From: a virus
Reading direction: 5' to 3' (one strand)
Virus record (IMG/VR): IMGVR_UViG_3300008459_000170
Coordinates: 1-35,056 of that record
DNA: 35,056 bases
Shown here: in pieces, positions 3,993 to 33,106 of the stretch
Numbering within the stretch: position 1 is the stretch's first letter
How the letters are laid out: each line of letters begins with the position of its first letter
Translations under genes and position numbers: made by a program
Notes under the pieces: model-generated
What the model was told of the DNA's origin: nothing
The model's input: only the letters and a program-made list of their open reading frames with translations
Databases searched by the model: none

Positions 3993-4018
3993 AAAAGGTG
4001 GTTTTACCACCTTTTTTT
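3993..4018 (+). terminator. Rho-independent terminator
   Basis: A perfect 10-bp stem (AAAAGGTGGT / ACCACCTTTT) with a TTT loop runs into a T tract, four bases after the stop at 3988. It separates the first operon from the terminase gene, whose TATTTATA box begins two bases further on. Confidence 0.9.
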
Positions 4019-4019
4019 G

Positions 4020-4027
4020 TATTTATA
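4020..4027 (+). promoter_or_regulatory. TATTTATA box before the terminase gene
   Basis: An exact TATTTATA is sandwiched between a terminator and the ATG at 4031, leaving only three bases (TGT) before the start codon. If this is a -10 type element, the transcript must be leaderless or nearly so. The terminator just upstream means the terminase needs its own promoter, which supports a promoter role. Confidence 0.55.
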
Positions 4028-4030
4028 TGT

Positions 4031-5809
4031 ATGAATAGTAAAATTGAGCAGTTAAAAGAATATGCTCGTATTATCAAAGATGCTCCATATGCTCTCAAAA
4101 CATATCTAACAACTTATGATAATACACAAAAGAAATTTGTTCCTTTAGAATTATTCCCTGACCAAGTTCAGTTAATTAAAGATTACGAAACTTATAATGA
4201 GAATATAACAAGGAAATATAGACAGGCGGGTGTGTCAACAGTTACCGCTGCATGGATATCAAAGAAACTTCAGACAGCAAAACCCGAAAATCCTGAAAGG
4301 GTTTTGATTATTGCAAACAAGAGAGATACCGCAATTGAAATGGCCAATAAGGTTAGACATTTCTTAGACCAATGGCCTGAATGGATTAATGTTGGTTTTC
4401 ACCCGGATAAAAATTCAGAAAGTAGATTTAGATTAAACAATGGTTGTGAAGTAAAAGCGGTAGCAACATCTGCGGATGCGTTACGTGGTTATACTCCAAC
4501 AATACTTGTATTTGATGAGGCTGCTTATATTGAAGCAGGAGAAGATTTTTGGGCGGCGTCTATGGCGTCATTGTCTACCGGTGGTAAGATTATTCTTATT
4601 TCAACACCAAATGGATATGACCCAATTTATTATGGTGTTTATGATCAGGCTCTACGTGGTATAAATGATTTTCATATTACTGATTTAAGATGGTTTAAAG
4701 ACCCAAGATATACTAAGGATTTAAGGTGGATTAAATGTGCTGACATATGTCATTACATGTTGAATAGAGAACAATATAATGATGATGAAGTTGTTATGTA
4801 CGATTTTGATATTGAAAAATATCGTGAGTATGAAGAACAAGGATACAAACCTTTTTCTTCTTGGTTTGAATCTATGTCTAAAAAATTCAAATATGATAGA
4901 CGTAAGATTGCTCAGGAATTGGAATGTGACTTTTTAGGTTCAGGTGATGGTGTTATTCCAGGTGAAATACAAGAGAATATTGCAAAGAATATGGTTAGAC
5001 AACCGATTGAAAAGTATATGCAAGGTACTCTTTGGCAATGGAAAGAACCTATTGTTGGTCACCGATATATTATGGGTGTTGATGTGAGTAGAGGTGATAG
5101 TGAAGATTTTTCAGCAATCAATATAATTGATTTTGATGATAGAGAACAAGTTTTAGAATATATAGGAAAAATTCCTCCAGATGATTTGGCGTCAATCGCA
5201 TATAAATGGGGTATTCTTTATGGTAATTCATTTATTGTTACAGATATAACTGGTGGTATGGGAATTGCTACATCAAGAAAACTTCAAGAAATGAATTATA
5301 AAAATTTATATATTGAAGGTATTAATACACAAAATATTTGGGAATATAATAGAAAAGTAATGGATAAAATTCCCGGTATAAATTTTAATAACAAAAGAAC
5401 TCAAATTGTTGCTGCATTTGAAGAACAAGTTAGAAAAGGATTCTTAATTAGATCGAATAGATTATTAAATGAATTAAACACGTTTGTTTATATTAATGGT
5501 AGACCTGACCACATGAAAGGTGCTCATGACGATGCAATTATGAGTATATCTATGGCGTTATATGCTGGTGATATATGTTTTAACCAACTTCAAAGAAATG
5601 AATCGGCAAATAAAGCCATGTTAGAGTCTTGGACAGTAAGTGAAAGAACATATGAACCTAATAAATCATTTTATTCATACGGAACGTCTTTTGATCCGGT
5701 TGGTTTAACTCAAATGGATAATCCAGGATTAAATTCTAATATGAATAATATATCATCAAATAAAGACGCATATCAAGAATATTCGTGGTTATTTGGTACT
5801 AAGAAATAA
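4031..5809 (+). CDS. terL: Terminase large subunit (T4 gp17-like packaging motor)
   Basis: This is the ATP-driven DNA packaging motor and headful nuclease of the prohead. The ATPase part shows a deviant Walker A, R-Q-A-G-V-S-T (residues 64-70), Walker B I-L-V-F-D-E (158-163) and a coupling motif S-T-P-N-G (191-195). The RNase H-like nuclease part shows G-V-D-V-S-R-G (Asp351), V-T-D-I-T-G-G (Asp405) and H-D-D-A-I-M (Asp500/501), matching the acidic triad of T4 gp17. The length of 592 residues fits the family. I chose the ATG at 4031 because an upstream GTG at 3998 lies inside the terminator. The usual P-loop lysine is replaced by valine. Other phage terminases also have unusual P-loops, so activity is probably kept. 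Confidence 0.95.
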   Translation: MNSKIEQLKEYARIIKDAPYALKTYLTTYDNTQKKFVPLELFPDQVQLIKDYETYNENITRKYRQAGVSTVTAAWISKKLQTAKPENPERVLIIANKRDTAIEMANKVRHFLDQWPEWINVGFHPDKNSESRFRLNNGCEVKAVATSADALRGYTPTILVFDEAAYIEAGEDFWAASMASLSTGGKIILISTPNGYDPIYYGVYDQALRGINDFHITDLRWFKDPRYTKDLRWIKCADICHYMLNREQYNDDEVVMYDFDIEKYREYEEQGYKPFSSWFESMSKKFKYDRRKIAQELECDFLGSGDGVIPGEIQENIAKNMVRQPIEKYMQGTLWQWKEPIVGHRYIMGVDVSRGDSEDFSAINIIDFDDREQVLEYIGKIPPDDLASIAYKWGILYGNSFIVTDITGGMGIATSRKLQEMNYKNLYIEGINTQNIWEYNRKVMDKIPGINFNNKRTQIVAAFEEQVRKGFLIRSNRLLNELNTFVYINGRPDHMKGAHDDAIMSISMALYAGDICFNQLQRNESANKAMLESWTVSERTYEPNKSFYSYGTSFDPVGLTQMDNPGLNSNMNNISSNKDAYQEYSWLFGTKK

Positions 5810-5860: not shown

Positions 5861-7657
5861 ATGGATAATCAAAATTTAACGGTATTTCAGAAACTCACTA
5901 AGATGTTTGGGTTTCCGGGTCAATCAAAACCTGAAGAAAAACAATCATTTACATTTAGTAAGGATGAGTTACTGAAAACGGATAGTAAAGAAGAATACGA
6001 AAACGCATTACTTCAAGCACAACAAAGTACATATATCGCAGATAAATGGGCTAAATTAGATCAATCACTATATAATCAATCAGTATATTATGAACCAAAT
6101 AGATTAGCAGCATACTATGATTATGAATCTATGGAGTTTACTCCGGAGATATCTGCTGCTTTAGACATTTACGCTGAAGAATCAACAACAATGTCAGAAA
6201 AAGGTGAAATATTAACGATATATTCAGAATCAACCAGAGTTAAAAATATTTTAGAAGATTTATTTAGTAACAGATTAGACATAAACACAAATTTACAAAT
6301 GTGGGCTAGAGGATTATGTAAATATGGTGACAATTTTATCTATCTCAAAATAAATCCCGAAAAAGGAATTATTGGTTGTCAACAGTTACCAAATATTGAA
6401 ATAGAAAGATTGGAAGGTGTTTCATCAAAAACACCCAATCAAAATCCTGAAATGAAAATGCCAACTAGAGAATTGAGATTTCAATGGAAAAATAAAGACA
6501 TGGAATTTCAATCATGGGAAATTGGACATTTTAGATTATTAGGTGATGATAGAAAATTACCTTATGGTACATCAATGTTAGATAAAGTTAGAAGAATTTG
6601 GAAACAACTACTTTTAGCCGAAGACGCTATGTTAATTTATAGAACATCAAGAGCACCGGAGAGACGTGTGTTTAAAGTCTTTGTTGGTAATATGGATGAT
6701 AAGGATATTGAAGCTTACGTACAAAGGGTTGCGAATAAATTTAAAAGACAACCTATTGCTGACCCTAAGAATGGACAAATTGATATGAGATATAATCAAA
6801 TGGCGGTAGACCAAGATTATTTTATTCCTGTTCGTGATCCAGCTGCGACTAACCCTATTGAAACATTAGCAGGTGCTCAAAACTTAGGTGAAATCGCCGA
6901 TATAGAATATATTCAAAAGAAATTATTAGCTGCATTGAGAATACCTAAAGCTTTTTTAGGGTTTGAAGATGCTGTGGGTGACGGTAAGAATCTTGCACTA
7001 ATGGATATACGTTTTGCGAGAACAATTAATAGAATTCAAAAATCATTAATTCAGGAATTAAATAAAATTGCGTTAATTCATTTATACTTATTAGGTTTAG
7101 AAGATGAATTAAATAATTTTCAATTATCTTTAACTAACCCATCTTCTCAATCAGAATTATTAAAGATTGAACAATGGAAAGAAAAGATAACTCTTTATAA
7201 GGATGCAACATCTGACCAATCTCAAATAGGTATTTTACCTGTTTCTCATACATGGGCTAAGAAAAATATTCTTGGTATGAGTGATAATGAAGTTATTCTT
7301 GATTTACAGCAACAAAGACTTGAAAGAGCTATTGGTTTTGAGTTAACTAACACACAAAATGTTATTAAACGTTCAGGAGTATTTGATAATGTAGACAATA
7401 AGTACGGTATACCCGAAAAAGAAAGAGAAGCAAGTGCGGGTGCTCCAGGTGAATCTCCCGGTGGTATGGGTGGTGAATTGGGTGGTGGTTCTCCTCCTCC
7501 ACCACCTCCAACAGGTGGTGGTGAAGCTCCTTTAAGTGAATCAAAAAAATTAAAAATAACAGAAATGTTAGATGAAAATGAAGAATTTGATTTTAATAAG
7601 GCGCAAGAGAATATTTATGAAATAGAAAATAAATTAAAAGACATATTAAACGATTAA
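5861..7657 (+). CDS. 20: Portal vertex protein (T4 gp20-like)
   Basis: This is the dodecameric portal at the capsid vertex through which the terminase pumps DNA. The 598-residue length and the central portal core fit T4 gp20: the D-I-Y-A-E-E region near residue 100, a W-x-x-G-H-F-R-L block near 220, a clip/stem region with R-A-P-E-R-R-V-F near 270, and K-A-F-L-G-F-E-D-A near 365. Position directly after the terminase supports the call. The C-terminus carries a Gly-rich and hexa-proline stretch (about 525-555) followed by a charged helical tail of about 43 residues, which I would not expect in a minimal portal and which may lie inside the capsid. Confidence 0.92.
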   Translation: MDNQNLTVFQKLTKMFGFPGQSKPEEKQSFTFSKDELLKTDSKEEYENALLQAQQSTYIADKWAKLDQSLYNQSVYYEPNRLAAYYDYESMEFTPEISAALDIYAEESTTMSEKGEILTIYSESTRVKNILEDLFSNRLDINTNLQMWARGLCKYGDNFIYLKINPEKGIIGCQQLPNIEIERLEGVSSKTPNQNPEMKMPTRELRFQWKNKDMEFQSWEIGHFRLLGDDRKLPYGTSMLDKVRRIWKQLLLAEDAMLIYRTSRAPERRVFKVFVGNMDDKDIEAYVQRVANKFKRQPIADPKNGQIDMRYNQMAVDQDYFIPVRDPAATNPIETLAGAQNLGEIADIEYIQKKLLAALRIPKAFLGFEDAVGDGKNLALMDIRFARTINRIQKSLIQELNKIALIHLYLLGLEDELNNFQLSLTNPSSQSELLKIEQWKEKITLYKDATSDQSQIGILPVSHTWAKKNILGMSDNEVILDLQQQRLERAIGFELTNTQNVIKRSGVFDNVDNKYGIPEKEREASAGAPGESPGGMGGELGGGSPPPPPPTGGGEAPLSESKKLKITEMLDENEEFDFNKAQENIYEIENKLKDILND

Positions 7658-7659
7658 AC

Positions 7660-8403
7660 ATGAACAGTTTTGGTAAATTAAAATCAAAATTACTGACAAG
7701 AATATCTGAATCGTATTCTGAAAAAAACATGACAGATGTAAAATCTATTATGGAAATCATAAAAGAGAATAAAAGTTTCAAAGAATTATATCTATTTTAT
7801 GAAGAAATAGAAAACAAATATTTTGAAGATAAAAATGTTGCGAAAGTATACGTTGAAAGTATAATTAATCTATTAAAAGATAAGACTAAAGAATTATATA
7901 AATTTAACAAAACACTTTACGAACATATTCAAGATTATAACTGTGATAACAATCAAGTATATGAATACTTAGATATTTTATCAGAGGATGATAGTTTGTT
8001 AAACATAGATAAAAAAGTATTAGCGAAGGATAATTTAATTAAGTTTTTAACAACTAAAAAAGAATCTGTAAAACTTGAGGAATCGGAAACATTAATACCA
8101 AATTTAGGTTTATTAAATGCAGTACTTGTCAATAATTTCAATGTTTTATATAATGATTCATTAAATGAGAATCAGAGAAAAGAATTAAAGGACATTTTAT
8201 CATTTAATGACGAAGATTTAAAAGAAAAAACAAAAGAATTAAAAGAAGATATCAATCAAAAAATCAATGGTATCTTATCTGAGTCAAAATACATACAATC
8301 AGATGTTATATCAAAATTAGAATCTGTTAAAAAAGAAGTGGATTCTATGGAAATTTCAAAATACAATTATTACAAACTTAAAGAATTAAAAAATGGTCTT
8401 TAA
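7660..8403 (+). CDS. Lys/Glu-rich helical protein of unknown function
   Basis: The 247-residue product is almost entirely charged and helical, rich in Lys, Glu, Asn and Ile, with probable coiled-coil stretches and no recognisable domain. It begins two bases after the portal stop and lies where T4 has small prohead core genes (67 and 68) between genes 20 and 21. A prohead core role is therefore reasonable, but it rests on position and composition alone. Its stop codon lies in the loop of a hairpin shared with the convergent bS21 gene, and the two coding sequences overlap by four bases. Confidence 0.75.
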   Translation: MNSFGKLKSKLLTRISESYSEKNMTDVKSIMEIIKENKSFKELYLFYEEIENKYFEDKNVAKVYVESIINLLKDKTKELYKFNKTLYEHIQDYNCDNNQVYEYLDILSEDDSLLNIDKKVLAKDNLIKFLTTKKESVKLEESETLIPNLGLLNAVLVNNFNVLYNDSLNENQRKELKDILSFNDEDLKEKTKELKEDINQKINGILSESKYIQSDVISKLESVKKEVDSMEISKYNYYKLKELKNGL

Positions 8404-8417
8404 TTAAGACCATTTTT
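8388..8417. terminator. Bidirectional terminator between convergent genes
   Basis: An 8-bp stem (ATGGTCTT / AAGACCAT) is flanked by A5 on one side and T5 on the other, so it works as an intrinsic terminator in both directions. Both convergent stop codons (TAA at 8401-8403 on +, and at 8402-8400 on -) lie within it. Confidence 0.85.
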
Positions 8418-8591
8418 CATTTTATTTTTAAATTTAGCTTTTAATATAATTTCTCTTTTAACTACAGAGGGTTTCACGTATTCTTTTCTCTCTTTCAATT
8501 TTTGAATTTGTTTAATTCTATTCACCTTGTTTTTATAGTTTTTCAACGCGGTTTCAATATTTTTTTCTTTTGTTACATCAATAATAATCAT
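8400..8591 (-). CDS. rpsU: Phage-encoded ribosomal protein bS21
   Basis: This 63-residue basic protein has the bS21 pattern. A short beta strand M-I-I-I-D-V is followed by A-L-K-N-Y-K-N-K (residues 15-22), then L-K-E-R-K-E-Y-V-K-P-S (32-42) and a Lys-rich helical tail, matching the family's A-L-(K/R)-x-(F/Y)-K and R-x-x-(F/Y)-x-K-P-S/T signatures. bS21 sits on the 30S platform next to the 16S 3' end. The start at 8591 is chosen over an in-frame ATG at 8666 because homology begins there and the extra 25 residues look like AT-rich leader. No Shine-Dalgarno precedes it. It is inverted inside the capsid gene block, so it is probably an acquired cassette with its own timing. Confidence 0.85.
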   Translation of the reverse strand: MIIIDVTKEKNIETALKNYKNKVNRIKQIQKLKERKEYVKPSVVKREIILKAKFKNKMKNGLN

Positions 8592-8623
8592 AAAAATAAG
8601 TATTTGAAAAAAATATAAAAAAA

Positions 8624-8691: not shown

Positions 8692-9117
8692 ATGAAAACC
8701 GGTAAGTTTATTCCATTAGGAATTTACAATGATGTAAAAATTGGATATGGAACAGTAGATTCTAAAAATTTAAAAACAATTTATTTAAAAATTAATTCTT
8801 GGGTTCAACCAAAAAACGAAAATGAAGATTTTGATTTTACTATTTTGAAATCAAGAAGATTAATTAAAGAAATAATTTCTAATCTCAAATTAGAATATTT
8901 TAAACCACAATCTATAGTTGATTTAGACATAAGGACAAAAGGAATTAAAAAAGAAAAAAAATCCTTTATGAATTTAGAGGTTACTTTATACGTAGAAAAA
9001 AAGTTTGATGTTAAATCAAAAGAAATAAAGTCAACTATAAAATATATTACAGAAACCATTATCGATAATGGTTTATCTGACAAAAATCTATTTAATTTCT
9101 CTAAAAGTAAAAATTAG
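8692..9117 (+). CDS. Unknown protein between portal and prohead protease genes
   Basis: The 141-residue product is basic, with alternating strands and helices and no motif I recognise. The ATG at 8692 overlaps by one base the stop of a three-codon reading frame (ATG AAA AAT TAA, 8681-8692), an arrangement that could couple translation. It follows a possible Bacteroidota-type promoter rather than the TATTTATA box used by its neighbours, so it may be expressed earlier than the capsid genes. Function is unknown. Confidence 0.7.
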   Translation: MKTGKFIPLGIYNDVKIGYGTVDSKNLKTIYLKINSWVQPKNENEDFDFTILKSRRLIKEIISNLKLEYFKPQSIVDLDIRTKGIKKEKKSFMNLEVTLYVEKKFDVKSKEIKSTIKYITETIIDNGLSDKNLFNFSKSKN

Positions 9118-9153: not shown

Positions 9154-9840
9154 ATGAAGATATTAGGTCCCAATGATATTGGTGTAAAAGGTTACCTCAT
9201 CGAATACGATGCAGGATACGTTTCCGCAGAAGATAATAAAGGAATAATTTCAGAAATGAAGGATATGGACTTTTCAAAAGACCTTATCCTTTATGCTGTT
9301 TTACAGAAATACGACACACCAAACAAAAATGGTAGAATTTATCCTGAAACCATTTTAAAAAGAGAAAACGAAAAATATCAAACAATTATAAAAAAAGGTG
9401 GGGCATTAAATGAATTAAATCACCCATCATCTTCTCTTATTGACTTAGACAGAGTTTCTCACTCAATTTTAGAAACATGGTGGGATGGTAAAATGTTAAT
9501 GGGTAAAATCAAATTGTTTACTTCTCCCGGTTGGAAAAAAATGGGAATAGTCAGTACTAAAGGTGACCAAGCAGCAATGTTAATAATGAATGGTGCGACT
9601 TTAGGTATTTCATCTAGAGGAGTTGGTTCTTTAAAAAATATAAAAGGTCAAAACGTTGTACAAGAAGATTTTGAATTGGTCTGTTTTGATTTAGTGTCGT
9701 CTCCGTCTACTCCTGGTGCATATGTATTTAGTGACCCATCAGAGAGAGAACAGTATCAAGAGTCTATAGAAGAACCAAAGGTCGATACTGACAAAATGAA
9801 AAGTCTAATGGGTCGACTTGATAACTTCTTATCAAAATAA
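9154..9840 (+). CDS. 21: Prohead core protease (T4 gp21-like)
   Basis: This serine protease of the herpesvirus-assemblin type matures the prohead by cutting scaffold, capsid and internal proteins after Glu in (L/I)-x-E sites. The sequence shows the expected core: K-N-G-R-I-Y-P near 58-64, the catalytic His in N-E-L-N-H-P (His90), and the catalytic Ser in G-I-S-S-R-G (Ser153/154). A D-L-V-S-S-P-S-T-P-G block follows near 190-200. The length of 228 residues is close to T4 gp21 (212). It sits immediately before the scaffold gene, as in T4, and its likely substrates are encoded in this same window. Confidence 0.93.
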   Translation: MKILGPNDIGVKGYLIEYDAGYVSAEDNKGIISEMKDMDFSKDLILYAVLQKYDTPNKNGRIYPETILKRENEKYQTIIKKGGALNELNHPSSSLIDLDRVSHSILETWWDGKMLMGKIKLFTSPGWKKMGIVSTKGDQAAMLIMNGATLGISSRGVGSLKNIKGQNVVQEDFELVCFDLVSSPSTPGAYVFSDPSEREQYQESIEEPKVDTDKMKSLMGRLDNFLSK

Positions 9841-11174: not shown

Positions 11175-12923
11175 ATGGGAGCATTATTAGAATCAGGTAT
11201 GGTTGGTAACATCGGTCTTAAGCACCTTCGTGTTATCAAAGAAGATACCATCAGAAAATGGGATGACCTCGGATTCCTTGAGGGTCTTGACGGTCACATG
11301 AAAGATAACATCGCGCAGTTGTATGAAAACCAAGCGTCTTATTTGATAAACGAAGCAGCAGTATCTGATGCTTCAGGTTCATTTGAGACTGTGGTATTTC
11401 CTATCATCAGACGTGTGTTCTCTAAATTATTAGCTAACGACATCGTGTCTGTACAAGCTATGAACTTACCAATCGGTAAATTATTCTATTTCGTACCAAA
11501 AATTCAAGATAGAACTGGCGGAAATGGTCACTATCAACCATATGGTATTCCAGGTGGTGGAGGTGGTACAAGTGCATCTACTGGATACACAGGTATTAAC
11601 CTTTATGATCGTTTCTATGAGTCAAACGATGACGCAACTTCAGGATTGTATGATTACTCTAAAGGAGGTTTCACTACAGTTAGTTTAACAGGTAATAGTC
11701 TTGTTACTTTCTCTAACGGAGCTGTTACTTATGGTGTAACTTATCCAATTAATACATCTTTATCAAGTGTAGTTGTTGCACTTAGTGGTTTCTCTAGACC
11801 AGGTCAAGGTAAATTAGCTGGTCCAGACGGTAACGAAATGGATACAGAAGAATTCTTGGCTTCATTATCTGTTGTGACTAACGCGGTTAGTATTTCAGGT
11901 ATATCAACAGGAAATTTACCATTCAATATCGTTACACAGAAATATGGTAAAGGAATTGTTAATTACGGTGTTAAAGCATTTGATTCTGCTAATGGTCTTG
12001 GTTATCAAGATATTTGCGATGAGAATGGTACTATATTCATCCAAGTTGATTTACAAACTTATTCGTCAACTGCAGGTTTCTCTAATTACACAGTAGCAGG
12101 TGGTGCTTTAGATGGTACTGACTTTATCTTTACTTATCGTAGATATGCTACTTTGGAATTTGAAGATGAAATCGGTGAAGTTTCTTTCGATCTTGAGTCA
12201 GTAACAGTTTCTGTAACTGAAAGAAAATTGAGAGCTAGCTGGTCTCCTGAATTAGCACAAGACGTTAGTGCGTTCCACAACATCGATGCAGAAGCTGAGT
12301 TAACAGCGTTGTTATCTGAGCAAATCGCTGCTGAGGTTGACCGTGAAATTTTACGTGACCTTAGAAAAGGTGCAGCATGGTCATTGAAGTGGGATTACAA
12401 CGAATGGAAATATGGTGGTAATGCAGGTGCTACTCTTCAGGGTTACACTCAAAAAGATTGGAACCAAACATTGTTAACCAAAATTAACCAATTGTCTGCT
12501 CAAATCCACAAAACTACTTTGAGAGGTGGTGCTAACTGGATCGTTGTTTCTTCAGAAGTTTCTGCAGTATTCGATGATTTGGAATATTTCCACGTATCAA
12601 ACGCTGCTCCTGAGCAAGATCAGTACAACATGGGTATTGAGAAAGTTGGTACATTAGCAGGTCGTTACCAAGTATATCGTGACCCTTACTTCCCAGCAGG
12701 AAAAATCTTGATTGGACACAAAGGTAAGTCATTGTTAGACGCTGGTTACATTTACGCACCATACGTACCATTACAGTTGACTCCAACAATGTATAATCCT
12801 TTCAACATGACACCGATTAAAGGTATCATGACAAGATACGCAAAGAAAATGGTTAACAACCGTTACTTCGCAACTATCGATGTGAGAGGTCTTCAAACAT
12901 TTGATTTGAACACTTTAAGATAA
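11175..12923 (+). CDS. 23: Major capsid protein (T4 gp23-like)
   Basis: This is the hexamer-forming shell protein with the HK97 fold. The C-terminal half is clearly gp23-like: V-T-E-R-K-L-R-A-S-W-S-P-E-L-A-Q-D near residue 345-360, then A-E-L-T-A-L-L-S-E-Q-I-A-A-E and the R-Y-A-K-K-M block near the end. The first 60 residues form a delta-type leader, and L-I-N-E60/A61 matches the gp21 cut rule (T4 cuts after Glu65). At 582 residues it is longer than T4 gp23 (521). The extra length lies mainly in a Gly/Ser/Thr-rich beta region (about 125-290), which may be an inserted surface domain. Codon use is visibly more GC-rich than that of its neighbours, as expected for the most highly expressed protein. 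Confidence 0.95.
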   Translation: MGALLESGMVGNIGLKHLRVIKEDTIRKWDDLGFLEGLDGHMKDNIAQLYENQASYLINEAAVSDASGSFETVVFPIIRRVFSKLLANDIVSVQAMNLPIGKLFYFVPKIQDRTGGNGHYQPYGIPGGGGGTSASTGYTGINLYDRFYESNDDATSGLYDYSKGGFTTVSLTGNSLVTFSNGAVTYGVTYPINTSLSSVVVALSGFSRPGQGKLAGPDGNEMDTEEFLASLSVVTNAVSISGISTGNLPFNIVTQKYGKGIVNYGVKAFDSANGLGYQDICDENGTIFIQVDLQTYSSTAGFSNYTVAGGALDGTDFIFTYRRYATLEFEDEIGEVSFDLESVTVSVTERKLRASWSPELAQDVSAFHNIDAEAELTALLSEQIAAEVDREILRDLRKGAAWSLKWDYNEWKYGGNAGATLQGYTQKDWNQTLLTKINQLSAQIHKTTLRGGANWIVVSSEVSAVFDDLEYFHVSNAAPEQDQYNMGIEKVGTLAGRYQVYRDPYFPAGKILIGHKGKSLLDAGYIYAPYVPLQLTPTMYNPFNMTPIKGIMTRYAKKMVNNRYFATIDVRGLQTFDLNTLR

Positions 12924-20244: not shown

Positions 20245-20943
20245 TTAATCTAAAAATCTACCTAATATACCCTCGTATAGTTTTTTGTATTTTTTAAGTG
20301 AAACTCTGATTTCTTTTGTTGATAGAGAAGTCATTTCTCTTAGTGAGAGTAGTATTAGGTTTTTATTGAATTTATTACCTTCACCATTTTGAAATATTTT
20401 TTCAAAATTGTTAAAGATTTCTAATAGTGCATAACCTAATTTCTTTTCATTGTCTGATAAATCTTTCTTTTCTATAAAATCTTCAAGTTCGATACTTAAT
20501 TTGATTATCACATCTCGATAATCTAAAACATCTTCTTCAATAGTGTATGATAAATCGGGTCTATCTTCTAAATCTGATGAGATGTCATCGTATGAAACAC
20601 TTCTATTTGTTTCTTTTGTATCTTTCTGAATCGCCCCCATAAGATAATTCTTACATATTGTACCAAAGTAAGAGTATGCTTTATGGTTTTTTGTATGGTC
20701 AAACTTATTGATTTTGGTTATCAAAAATGACATAGTATCAGTATGCACATCTTCGTACTCAAAATCTTTTCTGTATAATTTATAACGGCGGATAATACTT
20801 TCCACCATTATTTTAAGGGGTTCTCTTAAATATTCATTGAATATCTTATTCTTTTCGTTCTCGGATTCAGATTGTAGATATCTTATTACCGCTTCTTCTT
20901 GAGCCTCCCCAAAATAAATTTTTTGGGTTCTCTTTCTTGGCAT
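20245..20943 (-). CDS. 55: Late-transcription sigma factor (T4 gp55-like)
   Basis: gp55 replaces the host sigma on RNA polymerase to read late promoters. The 232-residue product has a sigma region 2: Y-E-D-V-H-T-D (about 63-69), F-D-H-T-K-N-H-K-A-Y-S-Y-F-G-T (81-95), and N-Y-L-M-G-A-I-Q-K (99-107), corresponding to the F-D-x-(x)n-A-F-A-Y-Y-T-T element of T4 gp55. Region 4 is not apparent, as in gp55. It ends with a basic helical tail. It overlaps the upstream glycosyltransferase stop by one base and lacks a TATTTATA box of its own, which fits expression before the late genes. Confidence 0.88.
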   Translation of the reverse strand: MPRKRTQKIYFGEAQEEAVIRYLQSESENEKNKIFNEYLREPLKIMVESIIRRYKLYRKDFEYEDVHTDTMSFLITKINKFDHTKNHKAYSYFGTICKNYLMGAIQKDTKETNRSVSYDDISSDLEDRPDLSYTIEEDVLDYRDVIIKLSIELEDFIEKKDLSDNEKKLGYALLEIFNNFEKIFQNGEGNKFNKNLILLSLREMTSLSTKEIRVSLKKYKKLYEGILGRFLD

Positions 20944-28206: not shown

Positions 28207-29289
28207 TTAAAAGTCAGGATATTGTCTTGTTTCTCCATAATAATTTCTACCTCTATTATCGATTCTCGTTAGAATATCAGTTTGTCCACCAACACTACCA
28301 TTGTTCTCACCTTTACCTGGTTCATCACCATCAGATAACGCCCTTGTGTTTACTGATGAATATTGATTGTTAGGGTTATAAATATTTCTACCAGTATTAT
28401 CAATTCTTGTAAAAATATCAGTTTGTCCTCCAATACTACCATTGTTCTCACCTTTACCTGGCTCGTCACCATCAGATAACGCACGAGTATTGATGGAAGA
28501 ATATTGATTATTTGGTGAATATATATTTCTTCCGGTATTATCAATTCTAGTCAATATGTCGGTTTGACCTCCGATACTACCATTGTTCTCTCCTTTACCT
28601 GGCTCATCACCGTCAGATAATGCTCGAGTATTAATACTTGAATACTGATTGTTAGAGTTATAAATGTTTCTACCGGTGTTATCAATTCTTGTTAGAATAT
28701 CAGTTTGTCCACCAATATTTCCGTTATTTTCTCCCTTACCTGGTTCGTCACCATCAGATAACGCCCTTGTATTTACTGATGAATATTGATTATTTGGTGA
28801 GTATATATTTCTTCCTGTGTTATCAATTCTTGTGTTAATATCCGTTCTACCCCCGATATTTCCGTTATTTTCCCCTTTACCTGGTTCATCACCATCAGAT
28901 AACGCTCGAGTATTGATGGAAGAATACTGATTATTAGGATTGTAAATATTTCTACCAGTATTGTCAATTCTAGTCAATATATCTGTTCTTCCTCCGATAT
29001 TACCATTGTTTTCCCCCTTACCTGGTTCATCTCCGTCAGACAATGCTCGAGTATTTACTGATGAATATCCGTTATTTGAAGAATATGTATTTCTTCCAGT
29101 ATTATCGATTCTTGTTAAAATATCCGTTTTTGAACCAATACTTCCATTATTTTCTCCTTTACCAAATTCATCACCATCGGATAATGCGTTAGAATTTTCA
29201 GAAGAATATTTTTTTTCTGACTCGTATTTGTTTCTGGCTATATGTTCTATTCTTAATTTTTCTGCAATTTGTTCTAACTGTGTTGCCAT
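28207..29289 (-). CDS. 47-residue tandem-repeat protein, probable virion component
   Basis: The 360-residue product is almost all repeat. Six full 47-residue units and a final unit of 45 residues follow an N-terminal half-unit. Each unit has two parts: A-L-S-D-G-D-E-P-G-K-G-E-N-N-G and T-D-I-L-T-R-I-D-N-T-G-R-N-I-Y, then a variable linker ending Q-Y-S-S-(I/V)-N-T. Even the first 33 residues match the second part (R-I-E...R-N-x-Y...Y-S-S). Copies differ at many synonymous sites, so the protein pattern is selected. The ATG at 29289 is preferred to an upstream in-frame TTG. I recall single copies of the S-D-G-D-E-x-G-K-G pattern in other phage structural proteins. Function is unknown. Confidence 0.85.
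   Translation of the reverse strand: MATQLEQIAEKLRIEHIARNKYESEKKYSSENSNALSDGDEFGKGENNGSIGSKTDILTRIDNTGRNTYSSNNGYSSVNTRALSDGDEPGKGENNGNIGGRTDILTRIDNTGRNIYNPNNQYSSINTRALSDGDEPGKGENNGNIGGRTDINTRIDNTGRNIYSPNNQYSSVNTRALSDGDEPGKGENNGNIGGQTDILTRIDNTGRNIYNSNNQYSSINTRALSDGDEPGKGENNGSIGGQTDILTRIDNTGRNIYSPNNQYSSINTRALSDGDEPGKGENNGSIGGQTDIFTRIDNTGRNIYNPNNQYSSVNTRALSDGDEPGKGENNGSVGGQTDILTRIDNRGRNYYGETRQYPDF
28210..29190 (-). repeat. Seven tandem coding repeats of 141 bp
   Basis: Unit starts on the - strand fall at 29190, 29049, 28908, 28767, 28626, 28485 and 28344. The last unit is 135 bp and diverges after R-I-D-N. The repeats encode near-identical 47-residue units, with variation concentrated at third codon positions and in the N-P-N-N / S-P-N-N / N-S-N-N linker. 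Confidence 0.95.
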
Positions 29290-29290
29290 A

Positions 29291-29788
29291 TTAGTAGTCA
29301 ATTAATTTTTTTATTTTTTCAACTTCTTCAAATAATCCTAATGATGTTATTGGTGTAATTGATGATTTATGTGAATTACTTTTAATTAAATTAACAGGGA
29401 TTTTGAAACTAAATCTTTTCTTGTGTTTTTTTAAATGACTATTTTTTCTTTCTCCTGTGATTCCTCCCATACTATCCGCATTTTTTTTAGAATCTTTTCT
29501 GTTAATTATCAACTGTCTTTCATTATCTAAAAATTGTTTAGCCCATTTTTCCATTAAATCACCACCACATAAATCGTATTTGGTTCTGTCTTTTATTTTA
29601 TCAATATTTTGTATGTCATGAATAATTCTTTTTAATTGACCATATTTTACTTTTTTGTCGTTCAATAGTTTTTTTGCTCGTTGAATCCCACGAACATTTT
29701 CACCTTGTAAACAAGTTACTGTATGATTAATTTTATCTAAGATATTTTGTGGTATATCAAAATATCTACTTTTTAATTCACTATTCAT
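29291..29788 (-). CDS. Basic protein of unknown function
   Basis: The 165-residue, Lys/Arg-rich, mainly helical product has a central C-G-G-D-L-M-E-K-W-A segment (about 76-85), a basic stretch N-R-K-D-S-K-K-N and K-K-H-K-K-R, and an acidic C-terminal helix. It overlaps the upstream ATG/stop junction by one base (TAATG) and is directly followed by the repeat gene. The basic nature suggests nucleic-acid contact or packing inside the head, but no motif is recognised. Confidence 0.72.
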   Translation of the reverse strand: MNSELKSRYFDIPQNILDKINHTVTCLQGENVRGIQRAKKLLNDKKVKYGQLKRIIHDIQNIDKIKDRTKYDLCGGDLMEKWAKQFLDNERQLIINRKDSKKNADSMGGITGERKNSHLKKHKKRFSFKIPVNLIKSNSHKSSITPITSLGLFEEVEKIKKLIDY

Positions 29789-30589: not shown

Positions 30590-33106
30590 ATGAATAGTCA
30601 GAATATTTTAAAATATTACGGGTCTAAATTAGACGTTAAATTAGATACCTCAGAATTATATGATTACGAACTATCAAAAGTTGACGATGATTATTATTCG
30701 GATGTATTAGATTTAGATAATTTAATTACATATACCGGATTAACAATAGATACTTCTATGAATCAATTTGGTTGCGTTAGAGATAATGTAATTCTAATTG
30801 AATATGATAACAGAATCAATGATTTGTCTTACCCATATTCGGGATATAGTATTTTTTTAAATTACAATGATTTTGTTAATCATTTTGGTAACACATATTC
30901 AAATACAATATTGAATAACCATGTTTACACTTATACAAATCCAGACGGAGAAACTCATTATTTTATTATTTCTGCATTTACTGAAAGTATACAATTGAAT
31001 TTAAATGCTCAAATTACCCCCGGTTCAATAGTTTTAAATTATTATTTGAATAGTAATCAACCGGTACAAGACAACATTACAGTCAATTTTACACACAAAC
31101 TAAACACAACAGGTGATACAATAGAAATTATTACAGGAATAACAATAAACGCTGGTGAAAGTAGTTCTAATTTAACAATCACTTTAGATGAGTCTTTTGA
31201 TATCCTTACTCAAGAAAATGTATTTGAGGATATCGTTTTACCATCAAATATCCCATACACAGGATTTAAAATAGAACCTGATGTGGTATTTATTGAACCA
31301 ACACCGACACCTACACCAACACCTACACCAACACCTACACCAACACCGACCATTACTCCGACACCTACATCAAGCCCAACACCAACTATTACACCAACAC
31401 CGACACCAACTAACACCCCTGAACCACCAGAACCAACACCTGAACCAGTTGCTCCTCAAGTACTATATAGAATTGATGTAAATAACTCATCATCATATTC
31501 AGGTACAGGTAACACAATTACTGATTTGGCGTTTTCAGCAACAACCACAATTTATAATAATCCAACTTATTCAAGTGATTATTGTGTCGATTATTTGGAA
31601 TTTAATGGTACTTCTAATTACGGTTTTGTTAATAATATTTCACAATCATTTGTAAGTAATAAATTATCTGTATTTACATGGGTTTATCCGATATCAAATG
31701 GAATAGTCCTTAATGAGATGTCTGGTGGACTTTCAGGTGATTGGCATTTATCAATAATAGAATTAGTTAGTGGTTATTTCCACTTTGGTCTGTGGAATGG
31801 TTCAAGTATAGATTTTGTTGCAAATCCTAAACCTGTTCAATTTAATAGATGGTACTATGTTGGTTTTACATATGACGGAACGGAAATAGTTGCATATGTC
31901 GATGCAATTGAAGTTAATAGAACATTTGTTAATAGAATTGCTCCTCCAAATTATCAATTAGGTATAGGATTACTTGACATAGTCAATATGGGTAATGGTG
32001 GTCCGGGTAATTTTAGAATAGGTACTATAGAAATTTGGAATCAAAACATATCTTCTGGATTGATAACCGGTAATTATAATACATATCTATCGACATACGT
32101 TTGTCCTACACCGACACCAACAAATACACCAACACCAACGCCGACACCAACGTCAACTAATACACCAACACCAACTAATACACCAACCCCGACACCAACA
32201 TCAACTAACACACCAACACCAACACCGACGCCAACTAATACCCCAACACCGACTAATACACCTATTCCACCAACACCAACACCAACATCAACACCGGTTT
32301 CAACAAATACACCAACACCTATCCCTGCAACTGCGACACCAACACCAGTTCCAACAAATACACCAACACCAACACCAGGATGTCCAACAGATTTGATTAG
32401 ATTTAATTATGACGCAACGGGTGACGCATCAATTACTGGTCTTTTAGGTCCAAATTCTTTTATTAACTCATTTATAACTGGTTCTTTCCCTCTTGATAGT
32501 ACAACAACATTAATTGAAGCAACTCGTAATAATGAAGAAGGTGATGAGAATTTGATTATTAGTTATGTGGGAGATAGTACTCTTGATAAATCAGTTAATA
32601 TCGACACAAATTGTGGTAGAACTGCGGAATTCCACATATATGCTGGTAGTTTAACGGGTTCTTTTATACTTGATAGAACACCAATACCATCCTCAGATTA
32701 TTTAGTTATAACGGTTGTAAATGGTTTCCGTTTAATTCGAGATACAGGTAGATTAATAGTTTCTAATAATACAGATAGAGAGGCGAGTCCAGGTTTGGTA
32801 ATAAACAACGTTGAGTTGCTGTCTGGTCTTGACGGTCCGGGTTATAGTGTTATTGATGGTTCAAATACTATACCGTTAAGTGCTAGAGATTGTCTTGTGG
32901 CGACACATACAAATAATAGTTCGAGTACTATTCTTGTTGAAATAACTAATGGTATAAAACAGGATCACACAGTTAAATTATATATAAATAGTGTTTTACA
33001 AGATTCACTTCTTGTTCAAGGAGATAGTACGAATACGTACTATTTTACTCATGATTCATTTGTGGTGGAAGACACTATAGAAATAGTTGTTGTACCTAAT
33101 GTGTAA
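30590..33106 (+). CDS. Tail fibre or adhesin with a LamG-like lectin domain and Thr-Pro linkers
   Basis: The 838-residue product is modular. An N-terminal region (1-235) is Asn/Tyr/Thr-rich and beta-type. Residues 237-289 are a Thr-Pro linker. Residues about 290-505 form a concanavalin/LamG-type beta sandwich (Y-L-E-F-N-G near 335, [11 protein letters not shown] near 423-433), typical of carbohydrate-binding phage decoration or fibre domains. A second long Thr-Pro linker covers 506-597. The C-terminal 240 residues are a further beta region with a T-G-S-F / D-S-T-T pattern. It probably contacts sugars on the host surface. The linkers act as spacers. It is the first gene of the rightward fibre operon. 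Confidence 0.85.
31298..31457 (+). repeat. In-frame hexanucleotide Thr-Pro linker repeat 1
   Basis: Low-complexity ACACC(A/T/G)-type repeat in frame with Thr-Pro dipeptides, interrupted by Ile-Thr and Ser-Ser. The period of 6 means slippage changes linker length without a frameshift. Confidence 0.9.
32105..32380 (+). repeat. In-frame Thr-Pro linker repeat 2
   Basis: A longer repeat of the same kind, with recurrent [12 protein letters not shown] modules. Its DNA is similar to linker 1, so recombination between the two could delete the LamG-like domain in frame. Confidence 0.9.

Follow-up and report, generated by a model that had tools for sequence, protein, structure and literature searches.

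What does a phage gain from its own copy of ribosomal protein bS21, placed in reverse among its head genes and started without a Shine-Dalgarno (SD) sequence? The locus lies in a 35,056-base stretch of viral DNA from IMG/VR, referred to here as the window, which sits at 99.997% identity within the 141,857-base viral contig IMGVR_UViG_3300032050_000019. Among the ribosomal proteins encoded by phages, bS21 is said to be the most frequent by a wide margin (PMC9976891), and the host gene, rpsU, is reported to be autoregulated through SD-based feedback (McNutt 2023, PMC9976891). An earlier sequence-only reading of the window proposed that the phage gene escapes this feedback, and that its product replaces host bS21 in the 30S subunit and biases it toward phage mRNAs that also lack SDs.

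Identity and setting of the phage bS21 gene

The 63-residue product passes the Pfam threshold for Ribosomal_S21 (PF01165, E 9.7e-9, 35.2 bits with a cut-off of 27) and falls about 1 bit short of the NCBIfam equivalog TIGR00030 (27.9 bits, cut-off 28.95), the family match being otherwise clear. The nearest solved protein is F. johnsoniae bS21 (7jil_z, E 2.3e-9), to which residues 1–62 align without gaps. The N-terminus, MIII- or MLII-, is common to relatives and hosts and backs the choice of position 8591 as the start. Structure prediction, proposed as a check by the sequence-only reading, yielded an AF2 model with two helices (residues 12–35 and 41–59; pLDDT 88.1, pTM 0.48), as expected of a two-helix bS21 of ~60–70 residues; a Foldseek search of the PDB with this very small model returned no match. 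In the gap-free alignment to the F. johnsoniae protein, residue 54 is Phe. Bacteroidia-type bS21 is recognized by an aromatic residue at this position, which stacks on A1534; the window protein is of this type by its sequence, and the stacking itself is predicted. Among the phage proteins of the second scan described below, residue 54 is Tyr in 77 of 79 and Phe in two, L183 and L184, whose bS21 is identical to that of the window (L184 is the window's parent contig); it is His in a few other relatives (L032). By the Pfam match, the solved homolog, the alignment and the model, the strand, coordinates and identity originally assigned to this ORF are correct. The gene encodes a genuine bS21 paralogue; the phage is a T4-like myophage, and its hosts are probably Bacteroidota, judging from the affinity of the bS21 and the composition of the start sites.

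The Pfam assignments of the flanking portal and prohead protease genes (Table 1) bear out the initial placement of bS21 as an inverted gene within the head block. No Pfam family matched the convergent neighbour. For the divergent neighbour, a fold search with an AF2 model (pLDDT 82.4, pTM 0.78) gave nothing credible (best E 0.035), nor did comparison with Pfam (best E 0.0016, to DUF3194, with 5 of 15 members matching) or with PHROGs (best E 0.018). It is possibly a partner or a prohead core protein. A tRNA scan of the window found none. Elsewhere in the window, positions 28207–29301 on the minus strand hold near-identical repeats of ~47 residues (ALSDGDE..GKGENNG..GG.TDI.TRIDN), in tandem in the DNA, and positions 30590–33106 on the plus strand encode a large protein, putatively a tail or fibre component, that contains long TPTPTPT linkers.

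Table 1 Features of the window in the order of their coordinates.
Feature	Coordinates	Strand	Remarks
Hairpin and T-tract upstream of terminase	3993..4018	+	just 5' of the likely terminase start
Terminase large subunit, T4-like	3998..5809	+	PF03237; likely start 4031
Box TATTTAT	4020..4026	+	4 nt upstream of the terminase start codon (4031)
Portal protein, gp20-like	5861..7657	+	PF07230, E 6.1e-78
Convergent neighbour, 247 aa, no assigned function	7660..8403	+	4-nt overlap with bS21; C-terminus KNGL
Palindrome over both stop codons	8387..8419		hairpin on either strand, bidirectional-terminator-like
Phage bS21 gene	8400..8591	-	63 aa and stop; Phe at position 54
Promoter-like box TACTTAT	8596..8602	-	ends 4 nt before the bS21 AUG
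TATATTTT, window form of conserved TATATTTG	8610..8617	-	host-type TAHHTTTG -7-like element
Divergent neighbour, 141 aa, no assigned fold	8692..9117	+	constantly adjoins bS21
Prohead protease, gp21-like	9154..9840	+	PF03420, E 1.6e-23
Major capsid protein, gp23-like	11175..12923	+	PF07068, E 7.9e-73
Putative late sigma factor, gp55-like candidate	20245..20943	-	phrog_234, E 0.0015; Sigma70_r2, E 2.2e-4, under the Pfam cut-off

A first scan of viral contigs identified 47 loci with a bS21 relative, among them the contig containing the window (L002). In 43 of these loci the gene occupies the same head block and is likewise inverted; the DNA examined around bS21 in L041, L044, L045 and L046 showed no match to the window head genes. 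A second scan, seeded by the 141-residue divergent neighbour, covered the best 80 of 442 relatives, included the parent contig as L184, and overlaps the first in its loci. There, bS21 and this neighbour lie on opposite strands in 79 of the 80 loci; at the other locus the sequence at that place spans only 27 nt. The two start codons are 100–107 nt apart in all 79 testable loci. A collection of phage records contained only four distant bS21 matches (41–44% identity), all uncultured or unclassified. The phylogeny recommended by the sequence-only reading was run as a quick tree on a weak data set (77 rows by 64 columns); the 26 phage bS21 sequences form one clade (SH-aLRT 99) inside the group holding Flavobacterium-type bS21, and the window protein lies on a long terminal branch (0.44). 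Because place and orientation are kept across the lineage, the idea that the gene was acquired separately can apply at best to an ancient event, and recent acquisition by this phage alone is ruled out by the conserved gene order and orientation in the relatives. L155 (genome G042, contig 27; host phylum), one of two bS21-like genes, is SD-less and has phage-like ends (MIIVDV and KAVYRQKK); its contig may be a phage contig binned into a host genome.

Shine-Dalgarno sequences in phage and host leaders

Leaders were paired with the 16S tail from a Flavobacterium genome, CTGGAACACCTCCTTTCT. The window bS21 leader is A/T-rich and SD-less, as the sequence-only reading had it, with a best duplex of +1.9 kcal/mol, and thus does not carry the extended SD of autoregulated rpsU. 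An extended SD is present, in contrast, in all 80 Flavobacterium-type rpsU leaders (-19.0 to -20.9 kcal/mol with a 13-nt tail), which are the best 80 of at least 547 confirmed loci and include a few binned genomes with other labels. In the wider host phylum, 23 of 30 rpsU loci reach -7 kcal/mol or stronger within 30 nt of the start, these being the 30 top-scoring loci among 102 matches from 99 genomes, two of them with identical leaders. The distinct phage bS21 leaders number 22 in the first scan, 38 in the second and 57 combined. None of the 57 pairs at -4 kcal/mol or stronger with an 11-nt 16S tail, and a single one does so with the 13-nt tail (L258, -7.1 kcal/mol, through GGTGT). The SD counts stay the same whether the search runs from position -22 to -4 or takes in the full 30 nt before the AUG.

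The scarcity of SDs extends to the rest of the phage genome. With gene starts taken from a simple longest-ORF caller, individual calls of which may be wrong, an SD at -7 kcal/mol or stronger precedes 1 of 137 genes of the parent contig, as compared with 7 at a mock position. The corresponding counts are 2 of 193 genes in a second phage (G005; mock 10) and 6 of 149 in a third (G004; mock 6), whereas a control phage record, LR756511, whose host is not known, does show SDs (18/52 genes, mock 5). Host genes near rpsU are also poor in SDs, with 3 of 329 distinct genes at -7 kcal/mol or stronger and 10 at the mock position. Because host mRNAs are nearly all SD-less, a missing SD cannot set phage messages apart from those of the host. 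The SD is thereby ruled out as the discriminator between them, and the proposal that bS21 biases the 30S subunit toward SD-less phage mRNAs is weakened. What SD absence can do is remove the phage bS21 gene from the SD-based feedback on rpsU, and escape from that feedback fits better than a bias toward SD-less phage mRNAs. The absence need not have been selected for escape, SD-less starts being the default in this phage.

Start-site box and shared 3' hairpin

A box of the form TA[TCA]TTAT lies 2–6 nt upstream of the bS21 AUG in 16 of 22 and 36 of 38 distinct leaders of the two scans, or 49 of 57 combined, many of which are closely related and hence not independent. Shuffling of the 38 second-set leaders gave the box in 1.6 on average and in 6 at most. 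The stricter TA[TC]TTAT is found in 11/22 and 34/38 leaders. Eight of the 57 leaders have no box at this distance, and the near box is missing at bS21 in the lineages L033/L034/L035 and L042/L043/L047.

The box recurs throughout the phage genomes. Among genes that encode at least 60 residues and lie 8 nt or more from the gene upstream, TA[TC]TTAT occurs on the sense strand in the 40 nt preceding the start for 29 of 80 genes of the parent contig (shuffled mean 6.4, maximum 13; antisense 8), 58 of 126 genes of G005 (shuffled mean 10.0, maximum 19; antisense 14) and 31 of 88 genes of G004 (shuffled mean 5.4, maximum 14; antisense 11). Its position across phage genes peaks sharply 4–6 nt before the AUG. 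TATTTAT is rare ahead of genes that abut the upstream gene (3/51 and 3/47) and common ahead of genes with a gap of at least 15 nt (21/69 and 50/114). This scarcity, together with the occasional location of TATTTAT 3' of a hairpin and T-tract, disfavours a signal for translation only; coding constraint in the upstream gene could account for part of the scarcity. The putative late sigma factor is a candidate reader of the TA[TC]TTAT box. Two genomes rule out the box as a feature common to bS21 phages in general: G003, which has bS21 in another context, lacks it (3/148 genes, with a mean of 4.2 in shuffles), and the Flavobacterium phage immuto, which has no bS21 match, carries it in 20 of 70 genes in the 98 kb examined, with 3 of the 20 boxes at 4–5 nt. 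In the T4-like immuto (loci L152 and L283), TATTTAT is mostly 11–31 nt from the AUG, and a separate motif, TTTAGGTAT, is enriched.

At the terminase gene, the terminator and box upstream point to 4031 as the likely start. The succession of hairpin and T-tract, box, and AUG 4 nt farther on is seen in three phages (the window, G005 and G004). Because the hairpin and T-tract adjoin the box, an intact terminase message must start in the gap between hairpin and AUG or come by read-through. This is strong anatomy for a leaderless mRNA, with predicted transcript starts. In contig G005, terminase and portal matches fall in separated blocks (~68232–72322 and 73282–76097), as though insertions interrupt them.

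The bS21 leader contains a further element. In the relatives, TATATTTG is located 16–18 nt before the AUG; the window copy, TATATTTT, is damaged and has lost the final G. TATATTT[GTA] is present at this distance in 37 of 38 distinct second-set leaders. The host -7-like consensus is TAHHTTTG (PMC6847099), and host rpsU has a -7-like element 28–31 nt before the AUG in 80/80 loci and a 25-nt leader (PMC9976891). Among genes with a near box, the host-type element is found in 0/10, 2/26 and 2/12, bS21 being one of each of the last two pairs. This suggests that the bS21 leader combines a host-read promoter with a late promoter, an arrangement particular to bS21 that is predicted from the motifs rather than read from transcript ends. 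If host promoter geometry applies, a box at 4 nt from the start codon would yield a bS21 mRNA that is leaderless or nearly so. Leadered mRNAs predominate in the likely hosts of these phages (PMC6847099). The bS21 leaders follow the adenine preferences of F. johnsoniae only in part, position -3 being T in 20 and A in 17 of the 38 distinct leaders, a poor fit to the leadered rule of the host.

At its 3' end the gene shares a palindrome with the convergent neighbour. The fold has z scores of -4.2 and -5.1 on the two strands, and a terminator scan calls it on both, with T residues partly inside the stem; termination is predicted. Each of the 32 distinct second-set junctions forms a fold of no fewer than 9 pairs and of -8 kcal/mol or better, an energy reached by 2.7% of shuffled sequences. 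Covariation was assessed on 21 rows, namely 20 of 23 distinct 45-nt junctions and L017, a set that omits the window form, L225 and L260, whose loops differ in length. The score was 0.184, compared with 0.103 (sd 0.011) in shuffles, and there were 12 double changes, compared with 3.4 in shuffles and none in slid registers. An earlier test on 15 poorly aligned rows was weak, whereas this larger gap-free set is clear. The hairpin is missing in L033/L034. Window bS21 and the convergent protein both end in KNGL, within the palindrome. Chen et al. suggest that the conserved C-termini of phage bS21 may matter for ribosome substitution (PMC9723584). The palindrome offers a competing or further cause, such that these C-termini may reflect a constraint on DNA or RNA rather than ribosome binding. 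Against such a constraint, host bS21 has KDSL where the phage protein has KNGL, so that the C-terminal end is partly ancestral.

Function of the phage protein and relation to known systems

The mechanism that we consider most likely, with a probability of about 0.55, is that an SD-independent and feedback-exempt supply of bS21 would keep the 30S subunit SD-blind while host rpsU stays repressed. The phage protein would replace host bS21 in host 30S subunits. Because residue 54 is aromatic, anti-SD sequestration is expected to be kept, and the ribosome would remain SD-blind and fit for SD-less messages. Host rpsU, with an extended SD read mainly by bS21-poor ribosomes, would remain repressed, and the phage gene, being SD-less and with little or no predicted leader, would stand outside the feedback. 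By displacing host bS21, the phage protein would keep the 30S subunit complete during late protein synthesis, and its N-terminal changes (loop at ~residues 25–30) may alter mRNA handling. It has been reported that bS21 mutation or loss favours rpsU and that truncated bS21 disfavours SD-less mRNAs (PMC9976891), and that phage bS21 is expressed late, its transcription accompanying that of structural genes (PMC9723584).

A published hypothesis, which we regard as possible on tentative grounds, holds that phage bS21 retargets the ribosome, its changed N-terminal helix and loop making the 30S subunit prefer phage late mRNAs. Phage-specific changes are described at residues 21, 23, 25 and 28, as is expression with structural genes (PMC9723584), and the same region differs here, host KTGTVRQL corresponding to KTKQIQKL in many head-block relatives and to RIKQIQKL in the window. 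However, SD absence does not separate phage from host mRNA, the bS21 proteins of L044 and L045 have a host-like loop (GTVREL), and the very short predicted leaders are the only phage-only message feature found here. Such leaders would give a ribosome a tangible means of favouring phage messages where the SD cannot serve. A version built on them is doubtful: phage messages, that of bS21 included, would often be leaderless or near-leaderless, bS21 with its altered loop would retune the 30S subunit to such starts, leader length rather than the SD would separate host from phage, and host bS21 would be shut off by its own SD feedback.

It is similarly unlikely that the phage protein serves only to replenish a loosely bound subunit, keeping bS21 stoichiometric once host rpsU stops, with neither specificity nor escape under selection. 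bS21 is described as late-binding and exchangeable (PMC12186496), F. johnsoniae ribosomes with C-terminally truncated bS21 are reported to be poor on SD-less mRNAs (PMC9976891), and the retained aromatic residue 54 is in keeping with simple replacement; yet the separation of the 26 phage proteins from those of the hosts (SH-aLRT 99 on 64 columns) is more divergence than a plain copy needs. A role outside the ribosome, such as one in the virion or prohead, appears very improbable in view of the retained core bS21 residues and aromatic residue 54, and of the four bS21 phages (L041, L044, L045 and L046) with no head-gene match around the gene. The head-block location in 43/47 loci and the linkage to the divergent neighbour in 79/79 would suit such a role, and packaging into virions is raised as a possibility in PMC9723584. 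For the favoured mechanism, a feedback-exempt supply of bS21, the SD contrast between the 80/80 rpsU leaders with an extended SD and the phage copy without one makes "ribosome hijack" directly testable with reporters in F. johnsoniae, for which rpsU mutants and reporters are already in print.

In identity and setting the window bS21 is ordinary and published in kind. The freshwater Bacteroidetes myophages of Chen et al. 2022 (PMC9723584; clades a–e) are described with an inverted bS21 between two hypothetical families, surrounded by terminase, portal, protease and capsid genes as in the window, and they share with it a Bacteroidetes-type bS21 with aromatic residue 54, Phe in one case. The substitution idea, the inverted placement, the Bacteroidetes hosts and the aromatic residue are thus already in that paper. 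Chen et al. also report an opposite-strand neighbour whose evolution tracks bS21 (PMC9723584), which could be either neighbour in the window. A term search of the main text of PMC9723584 returned no passage on promoters, leaders or autoregulation; the SD and leader analysis, the promoter box and the shared hairpin are given here and were not found in that text. A literature search on phage bS21 with SD or autoregulation, on leaderless messages and on Flavobacterium phage promoters, with most subscription papers outside its coverage, turned up neither a title nor an abstract dealing with leaderless late messages or with phage bS21 starts that lack an SD. As far as these searches reach, the measured host–phage SD contrast, the box near the AUG and the shared hairpin are new.

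The host of pelagiphage HTVC008M belongs to a different phylum from the probable host of the window phage. The HTVC008M bS21 is also phage-encoded, and its incorporation into E. coli ribosomes has been reported (Mizuno et al. 2019, PMC6375957). Host Flavobacterium bS21 (PMC9976891; structure 7JIL) is of the same family as the window protein, 62 residues of which align gap-free to 7jil_z; the Flavobacterium rpsU gene is described with a 25-nt leader and an extended SD, whereas its phage counterpart is SD-less and carries a box 4 nt upstream of the start codon. The TA-led leaderless genes of bacteria (PMC3160421) are characterized by a TA-like signal ~10–12 nt 5' of the start codon, a distance at which TACTTAT is found in the window. 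They differ from the present case in that the box here is TATTTAT or TACTTAT, occurs in phages, and marks a leaderless start that is predicted.
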